Origin: Methanothrix sp.
GTDB lineage: Archaea; Halobacteriota; Methanosarcinia; Methanotrichales; Methanotrichaceae
Direction of reading: 5' to 3'
Length of the DNA: 44,267 nt
Assembly: GCA_025361645.1 (NCBI GenBank)
Contig: JANYKI010000095.1
Coordinates: 1-44,267 of the forward strand
In this document: piece by piece, positions 25,324 through 30,951 of the stretch
Layout: each line of letters opens with the position of its first letter
How positions within the stretch are numbered: the stretch's first letter is position 1
Notes under the pieces: generated by a model
What the model saw: only the letters and a program-made list of their open reading frames with translations
What the model was told of the DNA's origin: nothing
Databases searched by the model: none
Made by a program: the position numbers and the translations under genes

Positions 25324-25433
25324 ATAGCTTCCGCACCTATCGGTCGGTTCATCATGTGACGGACGAGACCGCATGTTTTACCAGCGGACGATTTGCCTTA
25401 AAAGGATAATAGTAGTCAGATCTGGGTAGGAAC

Positions 25434-25520
25434 GTCCGCACGCCAGGGGGGGGCCGGAGGCCCGCTTGGTCGACTGTGCTTGCGGTCGAACGGGATCGCG
25501 GCCAGCTCCTGGGCGGGCAG
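25434..25520 (+). repeat. GC-rich dispersed repeat, copy 1 (short)
   Basis: Contains GCACGCCAGGGG..GGCCGGAGGCC followed by GCTTGCGGTCGAACGGGATCG, both shared with the copies at 26265, 27236 and 27645. It lies just before the NYN gene. This copy is partial. Confidence 0.6.
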
Positions 25521-25607: not shown

Positions 25608-26144
25608 TTGAAACGCCTAATGATATTCATCGATAATTCTAACATCTTCCGAGGATCACGCCGGGAAGGCATCAAATTTGATTACCAGAAGTTAGTGGAT
25701 TTCTTGGCGGATTCGGGCATTCAGAGGCTAGAAAAATACGACTTAACACGAGTCATAATGTACTGTGCTGTTGACAGATCTCAGCCGGATGATCGGGTCA
25801 TAGCCCAAGAAGCGCTATATTCTATCTTTAACAGTTTTATCAAGTTCGATGTCAAGACTTTTGACTTGAAATTGGTCCAAGCCGCTAATGGTGACATCAC
25901 TGATAAATACGAAAAGGGGGTAGACGTGGCCTTGGTTACCGATCTACTCTTGTTGGCATCACGAAATGCGTTCGACGTGGCCATCATATGCGCGGGAGAT
26001 GCGGATTTCTTCCGAGCTGTCGAAGGCGTAAAAGAAATGGGAAAGGAGATATACATCGCAAGCTTTGATAATAGTTGCGCAACAAAGCTCAAGGATGCTT
26101 CATTAGGTTATATTTCTTTAACAATGCACTCCACTAAAATTTAG
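25608..26144 (+). CDS. NYN-domain (LabA/DUF88-type) nuclease
   Basis: A 178-residue single-domain NYN protein of the PIN-like superfamily. Acidic metal-binding positions are visible in MIFIDNSNIFRG (first Asp), YEKGVDVALVTDLLLLA and AIICAGDADFFRAVEGV. These proteins are predicted or shown RNases and are frequent in toxin-antitoxin, defence and RNA-processing loci. The TTG start at 25608 is preceded by GGTGG at 5 nt; an ATG lies four codons later. It sits alone between two copies of the GC-rich repeat, which looks like a mobile or frequently rearranged neighbourhood. The substrate is unknown. Confidence 0.82.
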   Translation: MKRLMIFIDNSNIFRGSRREGIKFDYQKLVDFLADSGIQRLEKYDLTRVIMYCAVDRSQPDDRVIAQEALYSIFNSFIKFDVKTFDLKLVQAANGDITDKYEKGVDVALVTDLLLLASRNAFDVAIICAGDADFFRAVEGVKEMGKEIYIASFDNSCATKLKDASLGYISLTMHSTKI

Positions 26145-26264: not shown

Positions 26265-26455
26265 TAGATCGGCTCCGGCCAGGTCCGGGGCGGGCAGGAG
26301 CACGGTGGCGGGAGTCCCGCACGGTCCCCGCTTGCGGTCGGGCGGAGGCGCGTGTGGCCGCTCGTGGCCGGGCATGCCTGCTGACCGGGAGCTGCAGGGT
26401 CGGCAGGGATGCGGCTTGGCGGTGCAATCGGCAGGAATCCGATCGAGCAGAAATC
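26265..26455 (+). repeat. GC-rich dispersed repeat, copy 2
   Basis: About 190 bp. It shares CTTGCGGTCGGGCGG and GCTCGTGGCCGGGCATGCC with copy 4 and GGCAGGAATCCGATCGAGCA with copy 3. It lies between the NYN gene and the RelE-type toxin-antitoxin pair. Frames through it are Arg/Gly/Pro-rich and not credible as proteins. Confidence 0.65.
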
Positions 26456-26636: not shown

Positions 26637-26831
26637 TTAGCGTTGGCTAGCACGCCTGCGCCGTAATTCTTCTAATGTGATTCCCTCAGATTTATGCTTC
26701 TGCAAATACTCATATTGGGAATCAACGTATGCCGCCTCGCTATAATCTATCTTCTCTTCTTTTGCTTTTACGACGGCTGCCATCTCATGATCACCTGGCA
26801 TATTTAAGTTGTTTTTGATATATACCTTCAT
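26637..26831 (-). CDS. Small antitoxin of a RelE/ParE-type pair
   Basis: A 64-residue protein encoded directly after the toxin gene with a 4-nt overlap, so the toxin comes first in this operon. It is charged and helical in its C-terminal half (YVDSQYEYLQKHKSEGITLE followed by ELRRRRA), suited to wrapping around a toxin. The N-terminal MKVYIKNNLNMPGDHEMAAV has no recognisable DNA-binding motif, so self-regulation is uncertain. It is identified mainly by position and size. Some HigBA-like and archaeal RelBE pairs share this reversed order. Confidence 0.6.
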   Translation of the reverse strand: MKVYIKNNLNMPGDHEMAAVVKAKEEKIDYSEAAYVDSQYEYLQKHKSEGITLEELRRRRASQR

Positions 26832-27109
26832 CGGTAATCCGAATCTCCAGATCGAGGAAAGGCCTTGATGATGTATATCGCTTTCTCGGATTCATCAATG
26901 AAATATTCCAATCGTTGCCGTCCGATCCTCATTCGATACATTGCAGGCGATTTGAAACCACCAAGCTTCTTGATATCGGCAAGTGGGCGGCGCTGATATG
27001 GATTCTTCTTCAGCTCCTCAACATGCTCTTCTATCTGCTCGTAGGTGTCCTGATCCAGCTTAACCAGATATTTTTCAGCCTTTGGCAGAAATATCGTAGT
27101 ATAGGGCAT
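26828..27109 (-). CDS. RelE/ParE superfamily toxin
   Basis: A 93-residue protein starting at the ATG at 27109, which has GGAG about 9 nt upstream; in-frame ATGs further up (27136, 27124) lack a site. The fold signature is clear: MPYTTIFLPKAEKYLVKLD (strand, then helix), a helical hairpin with KKNPYQRRPLADIKKLGGFK, and the strands MYRMRIGRQRLEYFID and KAIYIIKAFPRSGDSDYR. RelE-type members cut mRNA on the ribosome using Arg/Lys/Tyr residues; ParE-type members inhibit gyrase. The basic, Arg-rich C-terminus suggests an mRNase, but this cannot be settled by eye. The antitoxin gene overlaps its end. Confidence 0.78.
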   Translation of the reverse strand: MPYTTIFLPKAEKYLVKLDQDTYEQIEEHVEELKKNPYQRRPLADIKKLGGFKSPAMYRMRIGRQRLEYFIDESEKAIYIIKAFPRSGDSDYR

Positions 27110-27235
27110 GGCCAAAAACTCCATACAAGTTATCATTCAATAGGATGTCGGCCCTCATTCCAGAACTGCTGTCTTCTTCTCACCTCTTCATGGTTTGGGA
27201 TGGTGCATTCAATAGTCTGTCAATGGGGTTTTCAT

Positions 27236-27430
27236 CGCTTGCGGTGCGGTCGAGCGGGATCGCGGGTGGCCGCTCGTGGCCGACTTGCCCGCGGGCGTGG
27301 AACTTCGGGGAGGGCGGCAGTTATGCAGCTTGGGCGGCGCGGCTGACCGGCAGGAATCCGATCGAGCAAGAGGGCAGGGACGCCCGCACTCCAGGGGAGC
27401 CGGAGGCCAGCTTGGCGGCATTGTTGCGAT
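27236..27430 (+). repeat. GC-rich dispersed repeat, copy 3
   Basis: Shares GGTCGAGCGGGATCGCGG with copy 1, GGCCGCTCGTGGCCG with copies 2 and 4, GGCAGGAATCCGATCGAGCA with copy 2, and GGGACGCCCGCAC..CCAGGGGAGCCGGAGGCC with copy 4. The block order relative to the others looks circularly permuted. Confidence 0.65.
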
Positions 27431-27644
27431 CGAGTATTATAATAATATTAAGTCAAGAATATCTAGATAGATTTATTCTTAGAAAAATATAAAGATTGTG
27501 TAGTGAACCCTTCCCTACTTCGTCCCATCTGCCTCAGGGCAGCCTCATCCTTTTCGGGAAGGACTTACAGCACTACTCAAGATAATATGCATCAAGCTTA
27601 ATATTTAAAGTTGACGAAGATGACAAGATCACAAGGCTCCGGTG

Positions 27645-27855
27645 GGCAGGCCTTGATCTCTCGTCGCATGCATCCCCGTCGAGCACGGATCGCAGGGACG
27701 CCCGCACGCCAGGGGAGCCGGAGGCCTGCGCGGTCAAGCTTGCGGTCGGGCGGGCGCGTGGGTGGACGCTCGTGGCCGGGCATGCCCGCTGGCCGGACTC
27801 TCGGGGGGCGGCAGGATCCGATCGAGCAGAGATGGCAGTGACGCCCGCGTACCGA
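27645..27855 (+). repeat. GC-rich dispersed repeat, copy 4
   Basis: Contains GGGACGCCCGCACGCCAGGG (27695), CTTGCGGTCGGGCGGGCG (27739), GCTCGTGGCCGGGCATGCCC and GATCCGATCGAGCAGAGATG, followed by a second GACGCCCGC. It therefore has parts of the start block at both ends, as if cut from a tandem array of about 150-bp units. It abuts the AT-rich island. Confidence 0.65.
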
Positions 27856-27949
27856 GGCGAAATAAATCAAAAGATGGATTAGGAAAACAATTGCAGTTGA
27901 GTCTCACGTACGCGGTCCATTAACCTTATTAGAGTTAAGAGTAGCATTG

Positions 27950-28465
27950 ATGGTCATGTCAGATGATAAAGAAAAATTGTTAAAGGAGTTTGGAGCTTTT
28001 ATATATACATTTTTAAAAAATATAAATGAGACCGGTAATATCCGATTTTTATCGATCATCATGCATCAATATTTAGATTATCATACAGATAATATTATCA
28101 AATCAAGTTTCAAGAATCCAAATGAAATCTTGAACGAAACTGTAGTTTTTGGATTCTATGAGAAATGCATATTACTCAAGGCAGTTGGAATTTTCGATGA
28201 AGATAACGGAGAAAAATTGCTGAGCAATATACGCATAATTAATTCAATAAGAAATATTTATGCGCACAATCTCTTGGATCTATCAACAGATGAAACTGTT
28301 CCTCTTAAAATTAAGGATAAAATTAATTCTATGTATAAATTTGGTGGAATAGACTTTAAAAAAGATGATTCCGATCTGTTTAAATTTAAGGAGCTGTGTC
28401 TTTCCACTATTGCGGAATTGAGCCGTATTCCAAGTAAGATCGAGGTTAATAAAATGAAGCTTTAA
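27950..28465 (+). CDS. Small all-alpha HEPN-like (MltR/DUF4145-type) protein
   Basis: A protein of about 171 residues, mostly helical and very A/T-rich in codon use. Its most telling segment is ILLKAVGIFDEDNGEKLLSN followed by IRIINSIRNIYAHNLLDLS. The RNIYAH is an Rx4H motif as in HEPN ribonucleases, and the context (FYEKCILLKA helix before, AHN after) resembles MltR/DUF4145 proteins. Such proteins are common in toxin-antitoxin and defence loci. Starts at 27947 (TTG), 27950 or 27956 are possible. It runs toward, and is convergent with, the HD/HEPN-like operon. No partner gene is adjacent on the same strand. RNase activity is inferred. Confidence 0.55.
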   Translation: MVMSDDKEKLLKEFGAFIYTFLKNINETGNIRFLSIIMHQYLDYHTDNIIKSSFKNPNEILNETVVFGFYEKCILLKAVGIFDEDNGEKLLSNIRIINSIRNIYAHNLLDLSTDETVPLKIKDKINSMYKFGGIDFKKDDSDLFKFKELCLSTIAELSRIPSKIEVNKMKL

Positions 28466-28480
28466 GATCTCCGAAGCTTC

Positions 28481-28513
28481 CTTTTTGGATCTTGGATCTA
28501 GATTTCCAAAAAG
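28481..28513. terminator. Hairpin between convergent genes
   Basis: CTTTTTGGA (28481-28489) and TCCAAAAAG (28505-28513) form a perfect 9-bp stem with a 15-nt loop in the gap between the HEPN-like gene and the HD gene. Its symmetry could serve as a terminator from both sides. Confidence 0.45.
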
Positions 28514-28539
28514 TTTAAATTATTTGTGTTATTAATAAT

Positions 28540-29580
28540 TTATTTCTCAGTAATTTGCTCTAAAATCTCCACCGGAATTATTTCTAAATTCGAATCTTCT
28601 CTCAGTTTATCTTCAATAGAAAGTGGGATGCTGTAAGATGCTAATATTTTCAGCAAGCCGCTACATTTGCTTTTAAAAACATCTATCACCATCTTTTGCA
28701 CAGAATCTCCATATTTTTTTATATCATCTGGATGTAACAGCAATTCAAAAACAATTATTCCTTCAATGATTTTTCCTTGGTTAGATACAAAATCCAAATA
28801 GATACGCGTTCTCTCGTGAAACCACCAATATCTGCCGTTTCCTGGATCTAATCGAAAATTCTTGTGGACTCCTTCAGGCACTCGCCGAAAATCAATGTCC
28901 AACTCATCAGCTAAGCGCAGAAGTGCAGCTATTAATTGAATCCTGGCATCCCTATCATGTTTACAGGGTTCAAAAACCGTTTCAATTATCGGCAACTTGC
29001 TATGATACATGCATATTTCCTTGAGACTTTGCACAAGAGATGGCTTAATTAATTTTGCGACATCATCAAGCCCAGAAACAGGATTCTCCCCTCGGTTAGT
29101 AAATGCGCATTGAATCCATGCTGCTGTCAAAAGGTGATGATTATTACGAATTTTTTCTTGTGCATCGTTAGAATAATTACTTGAGAATGCGGCATCAAAA
29201 ACCACACCAGTAAAATCAGCTTTAAGCACTTCAGCTTCTCTTTTTATGTGAGGAAACTTTATAATATCGCATTGCATTCCAATATCATGAAGAAATCCAC
29301 TAGCTAACAGCAAATAGCGCTCTACATCGGAAAGATCTGCCCCAGTTTTATCCCATAAAATCAGTAATAGGACTGTTGCCCAATCAAGTACACGTTCGCT
29401 ATGACTCTTGCCGTGATCGGTAAAATCATTAATTATATGCACATTTGGGATCCAGATGCTATCGATCGCTTTTTGAATAGCATGAAGATTGCCAAGAAGG
29501 TCTTCATTTTCAGGTTGATATTCCCTATAGAGAGATACTTTCTTTGGCGCTGGATAACGCTGATTCTTTGTAGGTATCAT
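28540..29580 (-). CDS. HD-domain protein of the HD-CE (conflict) type
   Basis: A 346-residue metal-dependent phosphohydrolase-like protein. HD motifs are clear: FTDHGKSHSERVLDWA (first His region), LLASGFLHDIGMQCD (HD pair), NHHLLTAAWI (His) and LRLADELDIDF (late Asp). This arrangement, with HGxSHSxRVL, matches the HD-CE group seen in defence and conflict systems, where it may hydrolyse nucleotides or signal molecules. The ATG at 29580 overlaps the upstream stop as ATGA, so the gene is translationally coupled to the 402-residue protein; a longer start at 29628 would overlap it by 52 nt. The last ~90 residues contain no further motif I recognise. Codon use is A/T-rich, unlike the core genes. 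Confidence 0.72.
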   Translation of the reverse strand: MIPTKNQRYPAPKKVSLYREYQPENEDLLGNLHAIQKAIDSIWIPNVHIINDFTDHGKSHSERVLDWATVLLLILWDKTGADLSDVERYLLLASGFLHDIGMQCDIIKFPHIKREAEVLKADFTGVVFDAAFSSNYSNDAQEKIRNNHHLLTAAWIQCAFTNRGENPVSGLDDVAKLIKPSLVQSLKEICMYHSKLPIIETVFEPCKHDRDARIQLIAALLRLADELDIDFRRVPEGVHKNFRLDPGNGRYWWFHERTRIYLDFVSNQGKIIEGIIVFELLLHPDDIKKYGDSVQKMVIDVFKSKCSGLLKILASYSIPLSIEDKLREDSNLEIIPVEILEQITEK

Positions 29581-30785
29581 GCAATAAGTGATTTGTATCC
29601 TACCCATTGTTTGGAAGTTCGATCCCAATAAAGACCATCAAAACTCAATATATTTAATAATAAATGTTCAATTATTGTTTCTAATTTCCTTTTATTTATC
29701 ACAAAATCTTCAAACGGAATTGAAGTTATGCCTCCCTGATTTAAAATCTCATCACGATATCTTATAAAATCCATATCACCATTGATAATATCAAAATGAT
29801 TATATAATTCTTCAATAAGCTCTTTAAATGCATAACAACCTCCTTCTGATCTAAAAATTTTATAACCTTCTATGTTATATTTCATTATATTCTTAGCAAA
29901 ATAGTATGCTAATCCACCCATGAATACACACCCTTGAAGATACCCAGCGTCAACATATCTGATATTTTTCATCATAATATAATTCAAGATTAACCCATCT
30001 AAGTTCAATACATCACGCAACGAGACTAGACTCGTAAAAGTTGAGTCGACTAACTCTGATAACGCACCAGGATAACTTAGGTAAAAAATGCTCCCACCGC
30101 TTCCACCTTCTTTGATGTATGAAGTTAATTCTATCAGTTCATCTCCTTGAGAATTATTAATATATGTAACTGGAAAGTTAATAACGTTAGATGCAGCAAA
30201 CTTGAATAACAACAGTAAATTATCGAAAATATCAATCCAAGTTACGTTATATTTTTCATATATATCCGCTACCTCAAAATATCCAACGCTACGAGGTATC
30301 TCTGGAATATTAGATTTAATAAGCATTAGATCTTTCAAACTATCTGTAGTGAACTTGACGGCAAACTCACTTAAACCAACAATCCGTGCGTCACCCGCGA
30401 AATTTATATCCGTAACAAATCTATAAATGTTAACCCGATCGGTACTAGATATTTTTCCACGTTTGCCTATCAATTTGATACCTATAGCTTTAAAATTAGC
30501 ATGAAGTGATCGCGGATCGTCACCCGCCTTAATAGTAACTTCTTCGTTAAATATCGAGAAATTTTCCCCAATAATATTCCAGCCGCTATCATCTTGAAAT
30601 ACAATCTCACAATTGTTAATATTTTCAGGATGCCTTGCATCTATTGTACCTTCTATGATAACATCTCCGACTCTCGACAAATAGGCAGATACATTATTGA
30701 TTGTGACATTTCCACCTGGTGTTTTTATGACACCTTTATCCGATGCAAACGATATTTTAGGTAGATGCAGAGGTTCATGAGCCAT
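29577..30785 (-). CDS. Beta-rich protein with degenerate HEPN-like C-terminus (ApeA-like layout)
   Basis: A 402-residue protein without signal or membrane segments. Residues 1-150 are strand-rich (GGNVTINNVSAYLSRVGDVI; CEIVFQDDSGWNIIG). A middle part has WIDIFDNLLLLFKFAASNVI and FPVTYINNSQGDELIELTSY. The C-terminal ~150 residues are helical and end FIRYRDEILNQGG...RKLETIIEHLLLNILSFDG. HEPN nucleases of the ApeA type have this plan, and a RxxxxH motif is expected at RDEILN; here the His is Asn (codon AAT, one base from CAT). It may be a non-catalytic sensor or have a different active site. It is the middle gene of a probable three-gene operon with the HD protein. Not firmly matched to a family. 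Confidence 0.5.
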   Translation of the reverse strand: MAHEPLHLPKISFASDKGVIKTPGGNVTINNVSAYLSRVGDVIIEGTIDARHPENINNCEIVFQDDSGWNIIGENFSIFNEEVTIKAGDDPRSLHANFKAIGIKLIGKRGKISSTDRVNIYRFVTDINFAGDARIVGLSEFAVKFTTDSLKDLMLIKSNIPEIPRSVGYFEVADIYEKYNVTWIDIFDNLLLLFKFAASNVINFPVTYINNSQGDELIELTSYIKEGGSGGSIFYLSYPGALSELVDSTFTSLVSLRDVLNLDGLILNYIMMKNIRYVDAGYLQGCVFMGGLAYYFAKNIMKYNIEGYKIFRSEGGCYAFKELIEELYNHFDIINGDMDFIRYRDEILNQGGITSIPFEDFVINKRKLETIIEHLLLNILSFDGLYWDRTSKQWVGYKSLIA

Positions 30786-30786
30786 A

Positions 30787-30951
30787 TCATAACTTCATTT
30801 CGCTTTGAGAATATAAGTATTCCTCTAAGTCTATCAGAGCCGCTTTCGACGAAAATAGCGTTTTTAGTCCTTGAGACGACGGACTTCGCGAAACTCGGAT
30901 GGCATGGACATTGTCCAAAAAATTAGATATGAATGCCGAAATCCGCTTCAT
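30787..30951 (-). CDS. Small ORF at the head of the HEPN-like/HD operon
   Basis: A 54-residue frame starting at an ATG that has AGGTGG six nt upstream; a longer version could start at 31002. The product MKRISAFISNFLDNVHAIRV...KAALIDLEEYLYSQSEMKL is helical with an acidic C-terminus. Its stop (TGA) is 1 nt before the ATG of the 402-residue gene, so coupling is likely. It also lies only 50-odd bp after the adenine deaminase stop. It could be a small regulator or antitoxin for the downstream genes, but nothing in the sequence proves this. Confidence 0.42.
   Translation of the reverse strand: MKRISAFISNFLDNVHAIRVSRSPSSQGLKTLFSSKAALIDLEEYLYSQSEMKL

Follow-up and report, generated by a model that had tools for sequence, protein, structure and literature searches.

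ApeA-like HEPN proteins (HEPN_Apea, PF18739; ApeA_NTD1, PF18862; Anantharaman et al. 2013, PMC3710099) comprise a beta-rich N-terminus, a linker helix, and a C-terminal HEPN domain, and ApeA is described as a one-gene defense system. HEPN domains that have become inactive have been proposed to be kept as RNA-binding, receptor, or regulatory domains, as in Swt1, nematode HEPNs, and HEPN fused to MNT (PMC3710099). The second domain of relevance here, HD-CE (PF24391), occurs in fusions with NACHT, NB-ARC, TPR, or HATPase domains; our literature search for HD-CE returned only unrelated papers and no description of its substrate. A validated anti-phage protein with a comparable arrangement, in that a phosphoesterase effector is placed under a sensor module, is the metallophosphatase-NACHT protein DS-8 (DefensePredictor, PMC13092281).

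We analyzed a 44,267-nt stretch of DNA (hereafter, the window) that lies in a 2.43-Mb genome of the genus Methanothrix. Here, a gene for an ApeA-like protein is followed by one for a stand-alone HD-CE protein (the HD gene and HD protein below), within the following set of features:

27430 to 30926 (approximate), no strand: variable insert beside adenine deaminase (ade), holding the pair and a convergent HEPN gene; same-genus comparison.
27947 to 28465, plus strand: 172-aa solo HEPN-like protein, RNIYAH motif intact; weak Csm6-HEPN match (E ~1e-3).
28540 to 29580, minus strand: 346-aa stand-alone HD-CE phosphohydrolase; Pfam, alignment, and AlphaFold2.
29577 to 29580, minus strand: 4-nt ATGA stop/start overlap that couples the 402-aa and HD genes; sequence.
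29577 to 30785, minus strand: 402-aa ApeA-like protein, with a beta-rich N-terminus (residues ~1-167), a linker helix (~183-199), and a degenerate HEPN (~255-393); hhalign to ApeA-like profiles and invariant columns.
30810 to 30818, minus strand: TATA-like box ACTTATATT, ~29 nt upstream of the 402-aa ATG; read by eye.
30787 to 30951, minus strand: 54-aa small ORF, judged no gene; chance-open test and ade-flank homology.

The preliminary description of this DNA had reported A/T-rich genes separated by a 1-nt gap and a 4-nt overlap, all of which are seen in the sequence, and had counted three genes in the operon. We find that the tightly coupled unit is real, but that it consists of two genes. 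Both have an AT-rich codon usage, with GC contents of 0.33 (402-aa gene) and 0.38 (HD gene, which likely starts at the ATG at 29580) against a window mean of 0.505, and GC3 of 0.26 and 0.31, respectively, against 0.72-0.74 in the neighboring ade (GC 0.61) and CDC48 (GC 0.58). The probability that frames of these lengths would lack a stop by chance was 7e-16 and 4e-12 for the 402-aa and HD genes, respectively. The 54-aa ORF, located across the 1-nt gap upstream of the 402-aa gene, could stay open by chance with a probability of 0.03 (one frame), carried no codon-position signal (GC1/2/3 of.40/.38/.44), and had no family match. Its 5' end is ade 3'-flank DNA common to another Methanothrix genome (G219), the homology stopping at ~30926, and there is a 1-nt length difference relative to G219 inside the ORF. 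We therefore rule it out as a third subunit, since it straddles the edge of the insert, is a chance frame, and has no coding signal. The TATA-like box (30818-30810) falls within this ORF, and its position suggests that it is the promoter of a two-gene transcript of the 402-aa and HD genes, an mRNA that is probably leaderless.

The kinship of the 402-aa protein is well supported by homology of its C-terminal part to ApeA-like HEPN proteins. The protein had no Pfam match up to E 10 and none in NCBIfam or PADLOC, so that, unlike the one-gene ApeA system, it does not reach the ApeA_NTD1 or HEPN_Apea cut-offs; its PHROGs match was non-significant. Searches of genomes from the same class and phylum returned three weak, separate matches, each located at residues ~320-391: a protein of Argoarchaeum (L003, RDNIIHG), for which the E of only ~1e-3 for one genome is little proof by itself, one (L108, RNQITHRG) that in its own right passes the Pfam HEPN_Apea model (E 4.6e-7), and a third (L122, RNQIVHSG). 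With hhalign, a seven-sequence ApeA-like profile built without the window protein matched at E 8e-6 (probability 84%, score 47.9), a score reached by 0 of 200 shuffles (maximum 28.0), with the reversed sequence at 12.8 and the HD protein at 13.2. A profile including the window protein was used to find further ApeA-like members, and a 14-member profile, again without it, matched residues 168-393 at E 1e-6 and a probability of 91%. The likeness to ApeA put forward in the preliminary description thus stands for the C-terminal HEPN; the beta-rich N-terminus is only weakly predicted, and residues 1-230 alone scored within the shuffles against the ApeA-like profile, with no detectable homology. The N-terminal beta strands appear in a single-sequence AlphaFold2 model that is itself poor (pLDDT 33).

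For the 402-aa protein, no close homologue turned up in the genomes sampled from its class and phylum, in genome contigs, in viral contigs, or in plasmids. Matches to a phage rIIB-like protein (E 0.03), to L004 (by eye, an RND-type transporter), and to L123 were taken as chance, and a match of L082 to the Argoarchaeum protein involved a different segment that is not HEPN. The genome from which the window comes encodes two other ApeA-like proteins, one with an intact RDSLIH motif (L209, G000:C132:19298-20668) and a full ApeA_NTD1 plus HEPN_Apea protein with intact RNYLTH (L104, G000:C13:2633-3037 and around).

Regarding the HEPN active site, exactly four columns (Glu, Asn, Arg, and His) were invariant across all 16 of the 16 ApeA-like relatives. 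The 402-aa protein has G290, G316, R344, and N349 at these columns, retaining only Arg344, and lacks a segment in the stretch from the first helix to the Asn position, so that the region between the first and later helices is shortened relative to ApeA-like HEPN proteins. The His-to-Asn change noted in the preliminary description, by which RxxxxH reads RDEILN (residues 344-349, CGT GAT GAG ATT TTA AAT), is therefore confirmed but forms part of a broader loss. Because Glu, Asn, and His are lost and the segment is missing, a canonical RNase site is very unlikely as judged from the alignment, and the protein is probably a degenerate, non-cutting HEPN. Loss of the motif would by itself be no proof of inactivity, since the HEPNs of type IX retrons lack the canonical motif and use a distant His and Arg instead (PMC13405049). 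Two histidines, H330 and H374, are present in the 402-aa protein and are not conserved among relatives.

The HD-CE-like active site was correctly read as intact in the preliminary description. The HD protein matched Pfam HD-CE at E 9e-34 (117.8 bits against a gathering cut-off of 27), and in an alignment of 34 sequences, namely this protein and 33 relatives, H56, H98, D99, H148, H193, E226, and D228 were invariant. The whole conserved set is intact in the HD protein (T54, H56, H60, H98-D99, H148, H193, D225, E226, and D228). AlphaFold2 with the 34-sequence alignment gave a model with a pLDDT of 90.5 that was well folded to its end. Foldseek searches of this model against PDB gave a probability of 1.0 for exopolyphosphatase and 0.91-0.93 for PDE1B, with SAMHD1 lower and no match at E<=0.001, while a fold search against viral models gave weak HD hydrolases only. 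From the predicted model, the HD/PDE-type fold class is clear.

The closest HD-CE relatives (38-46% identity) share the same invariant His/Asp set but are mostly ~850-1560 aa in length, with HD-CE at the N-terminus. In the relatives that were scanned, HD-CE was followed by NA-iREase1 plus NACHT plus pentapeptide repeats, by NACHT plus WD40, or by NB-ARC, TPR, or HATPase. In contrast to these fusions, the window protein is stand-alone, ending at residue 346 with no NACHT or other fused domain in the Pfam scan. Because the architectures of the relatives vary in their sensor-type domains, HD-CE appears to be a plug-in effector that is combined with interchangeable sensors. DS-8 differs from the window pair in having another phosphoesterase fold, a NACHT in the same protein, and a bacterial origin.

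A partner in trans is possible for HD-CE-like proteins, as two further loci show: in both, a stand-alone HD-CE-like gene overlaps a gene for a P-loop-type ATPase of ~610 aa, which may be another two-gene HD-CE system. One was in Ignavibacteria (L097, 534-3361) and the other in an archaeon of the same class (L140, 4947-7791); the HD-CE-like proteins are 335 and 346 aa, and the ATPases 607 and 614 aa, respectively. The window pair is likewise a stand-alone HD-CE gene overlapping a potential partner, but the ATPase is encoded downstream, whereas here the 402-aa gene, which has no Pfam match, lies upstream.

The pair is one insert at a site that is variable among Methanothrix genomes. Genomes of the same genus lack the insert and encode flanking proteins with 87-99% identity to those of the window: ade at 93% (G218) and 87% (G219), the NYN protein at 99% (G218) and 98% (G219), and the RelE-like pair at 97/95% (G219). 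Between ade and NYN, G218 carries an 804-aa TPR protein, and between the flanks G219 carries an AT-rich gene of 269 aa together with a RelE-like gene; on the same side of ade, the cargo is a PIN_8 protein in G217, near a transposase-like gene, and an AAA ATPase in G224, which matches PADLOC HEC-04 at E 1e-39. Given this other cargo in four genomes, the ade-adjacent site is variable and takes up defense-like genes. The 172-aa HEPN-like gene belongs to the same AT-rich insert, is convergent with the HD gene, and lies outside the operon. Characterization of the neighborhood as a defense island holds for ~25.4-31 kb only, the other window genes tested being mostly housekeeping (adenine deaminase, CDC48, ABCE1-like, and ABC transporter).

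Several additional elements were observed around the insert. GC-rich intergenic repeats, for example TGCGGTCGGGCGG... and GGAATCCGATCGAGCA, were located among the small genes at 25426-25501, 26276-26449, 27245-27436, and 27679-27848. They form one family; within this genome, a copy used as query matched nowhere but at this site, and some relatives (G217, G218, G219, and G224) have such repeats at the same ade-adjacent site. The NYN-domain protein (25608-26144, plus strand) matched PADLOC HEC-09 at E 2e-11, and a ParE/RelE-type toxin gene (26828-27136) adjoins a candidate 64-aa partner (26637-26831), both on the minus strand.

We consider the locus to be, with a probability of roughly 0.5, a horizontally acquired two-gene antiviral module in which a disarmed ApeA-type sensor or scaffold controls an HD-CE effector. 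A functional pairing is argued for by the ATGA coupling, by the foreign origin that both genes share, and by the logic that HD-CE architectures follow. Since the stand-alone HD-CE protein is without its usual sensor part, the separate ApeA-like protein encoded upstream may supply it; the sensor role of the 402-aa protein is assigned by analogy. The proposed sequence of events is one in which a conflict module would have been gained by horizontal transfer, with an ApeA-family protein in which the HEPN RNase site had decayed while the HEPN scaffold and a divergent beta-rich N-terminus were kept. HEPN domains typically dimerise. The 402-aa protein would act as infection sensor and regulatory scaffold, holding quiet or recruiting the translationally coupled HD-CE, a putative metal-dependent phosphohydrolase. 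Once freed, HD-CE would destroy a phosphate-containing target, be it nucleotides, a nucleotide second messenger, or nucleic acid, such that virus growth would be stopped or the cell arrested. For the pair, it is the interaction, sensing, antiviral role, and substrate that we infer. Somewhat more tentative is the evolutionary part of this proposal, in which a dead ApeA-type HEPN would have turned from killer into infection sensor or scaffold over a separate HD-CE, an effector swap on an old sensor.

The preliminary description had joined the two proteins in one system and had taken their occurring apart in most genomes as grounds to reject it; among the relatives sampled, they do occur apart. 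None of the ~85 HD-CE loci fetched, some of which represent the same place twice, had an ApeA-like gene as a neighbor of HD-CE (the best match, at E 0.24, was to short frames), nor did 13 ApeA-like loci, taken together with several kb of flanking DNA, contain an HD-CE gene. The pairing is so far unique, which lowers but does not remove the claim of a functional link; a private pairing could still fit, since HD-CE relatives join many different sensor-type domains. The main rival explanation, which we regard as rather unlikely, gains from this uniqueness: the two would be independent cargo genes of a defense hotspot, adjacent by chance and sharing a transcript, the 402-aa gene being a decaying ApeA-type gene and HD-CE either acting solo or being the remnant of a larger, sensor-fused protein. 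It would account for the varied genes accumulated at the ade site, for the loss of three invariant HEPN residues as expected from decay, and for close HD-CE relatives usually being much longer proteins. However, both frames are intact (p ~1e-12 to 1e-16) and joined by the ATGA overlap. A remnant is further countered by the HD model being well folded to its end and by a spacing of only 74 bases from the HD stop (28540) to the end of the convergent gene (28465), a distance so short that no NACHT remnant lies there.

We judge it improbable that the pair has a toxin-antitoxin-like or reset role, in which the 402-aa protein would still be an RNase or RNA binder through a non-canonical site and HD-CE would regulate it or hydrolyse its activating nucleotide. 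Non-canonical HEPN active sites exist (PMC13405049; discussed in PMC3710099), and R344, H330, and H374 remain in the protein, but the two histidines are not conserved among relatives, the invariant Glu and Asn are gone, and the N-terminal placement of HD-CE in the fusions of its relatives is the usual effector position. Lastly, the pair could have no defense role and consist of a metabolic HD phosphohydrolase and a protein that regulates it. This reading would agree with the diverse substrates of HD enzymes and with the lack of a convincing PADLOC match for either gene (best E 0.0017), but it is very unlikely given the NACHT, NB-ARC, and WD40 parts joined to HD-CE relatives and given that the insert is foreign, AT-rich, and located where the genomes vary.

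Taken as an antiviral module of sensor and effector, the pair is a good candidate for a variant of a known modular defense theme. If the proposed module is true, HD-CE would gain a small two-protein setting for activation and substrate assays, without a 1000-residue NACHT fusion, and the variable site beside adenine deaminase in Methanothrix would be a place to look for archaeal defense genes. The sensing half of ApeA-type proteins would then be separable from the cutting of RNA and open to re-use in driving a different effector.
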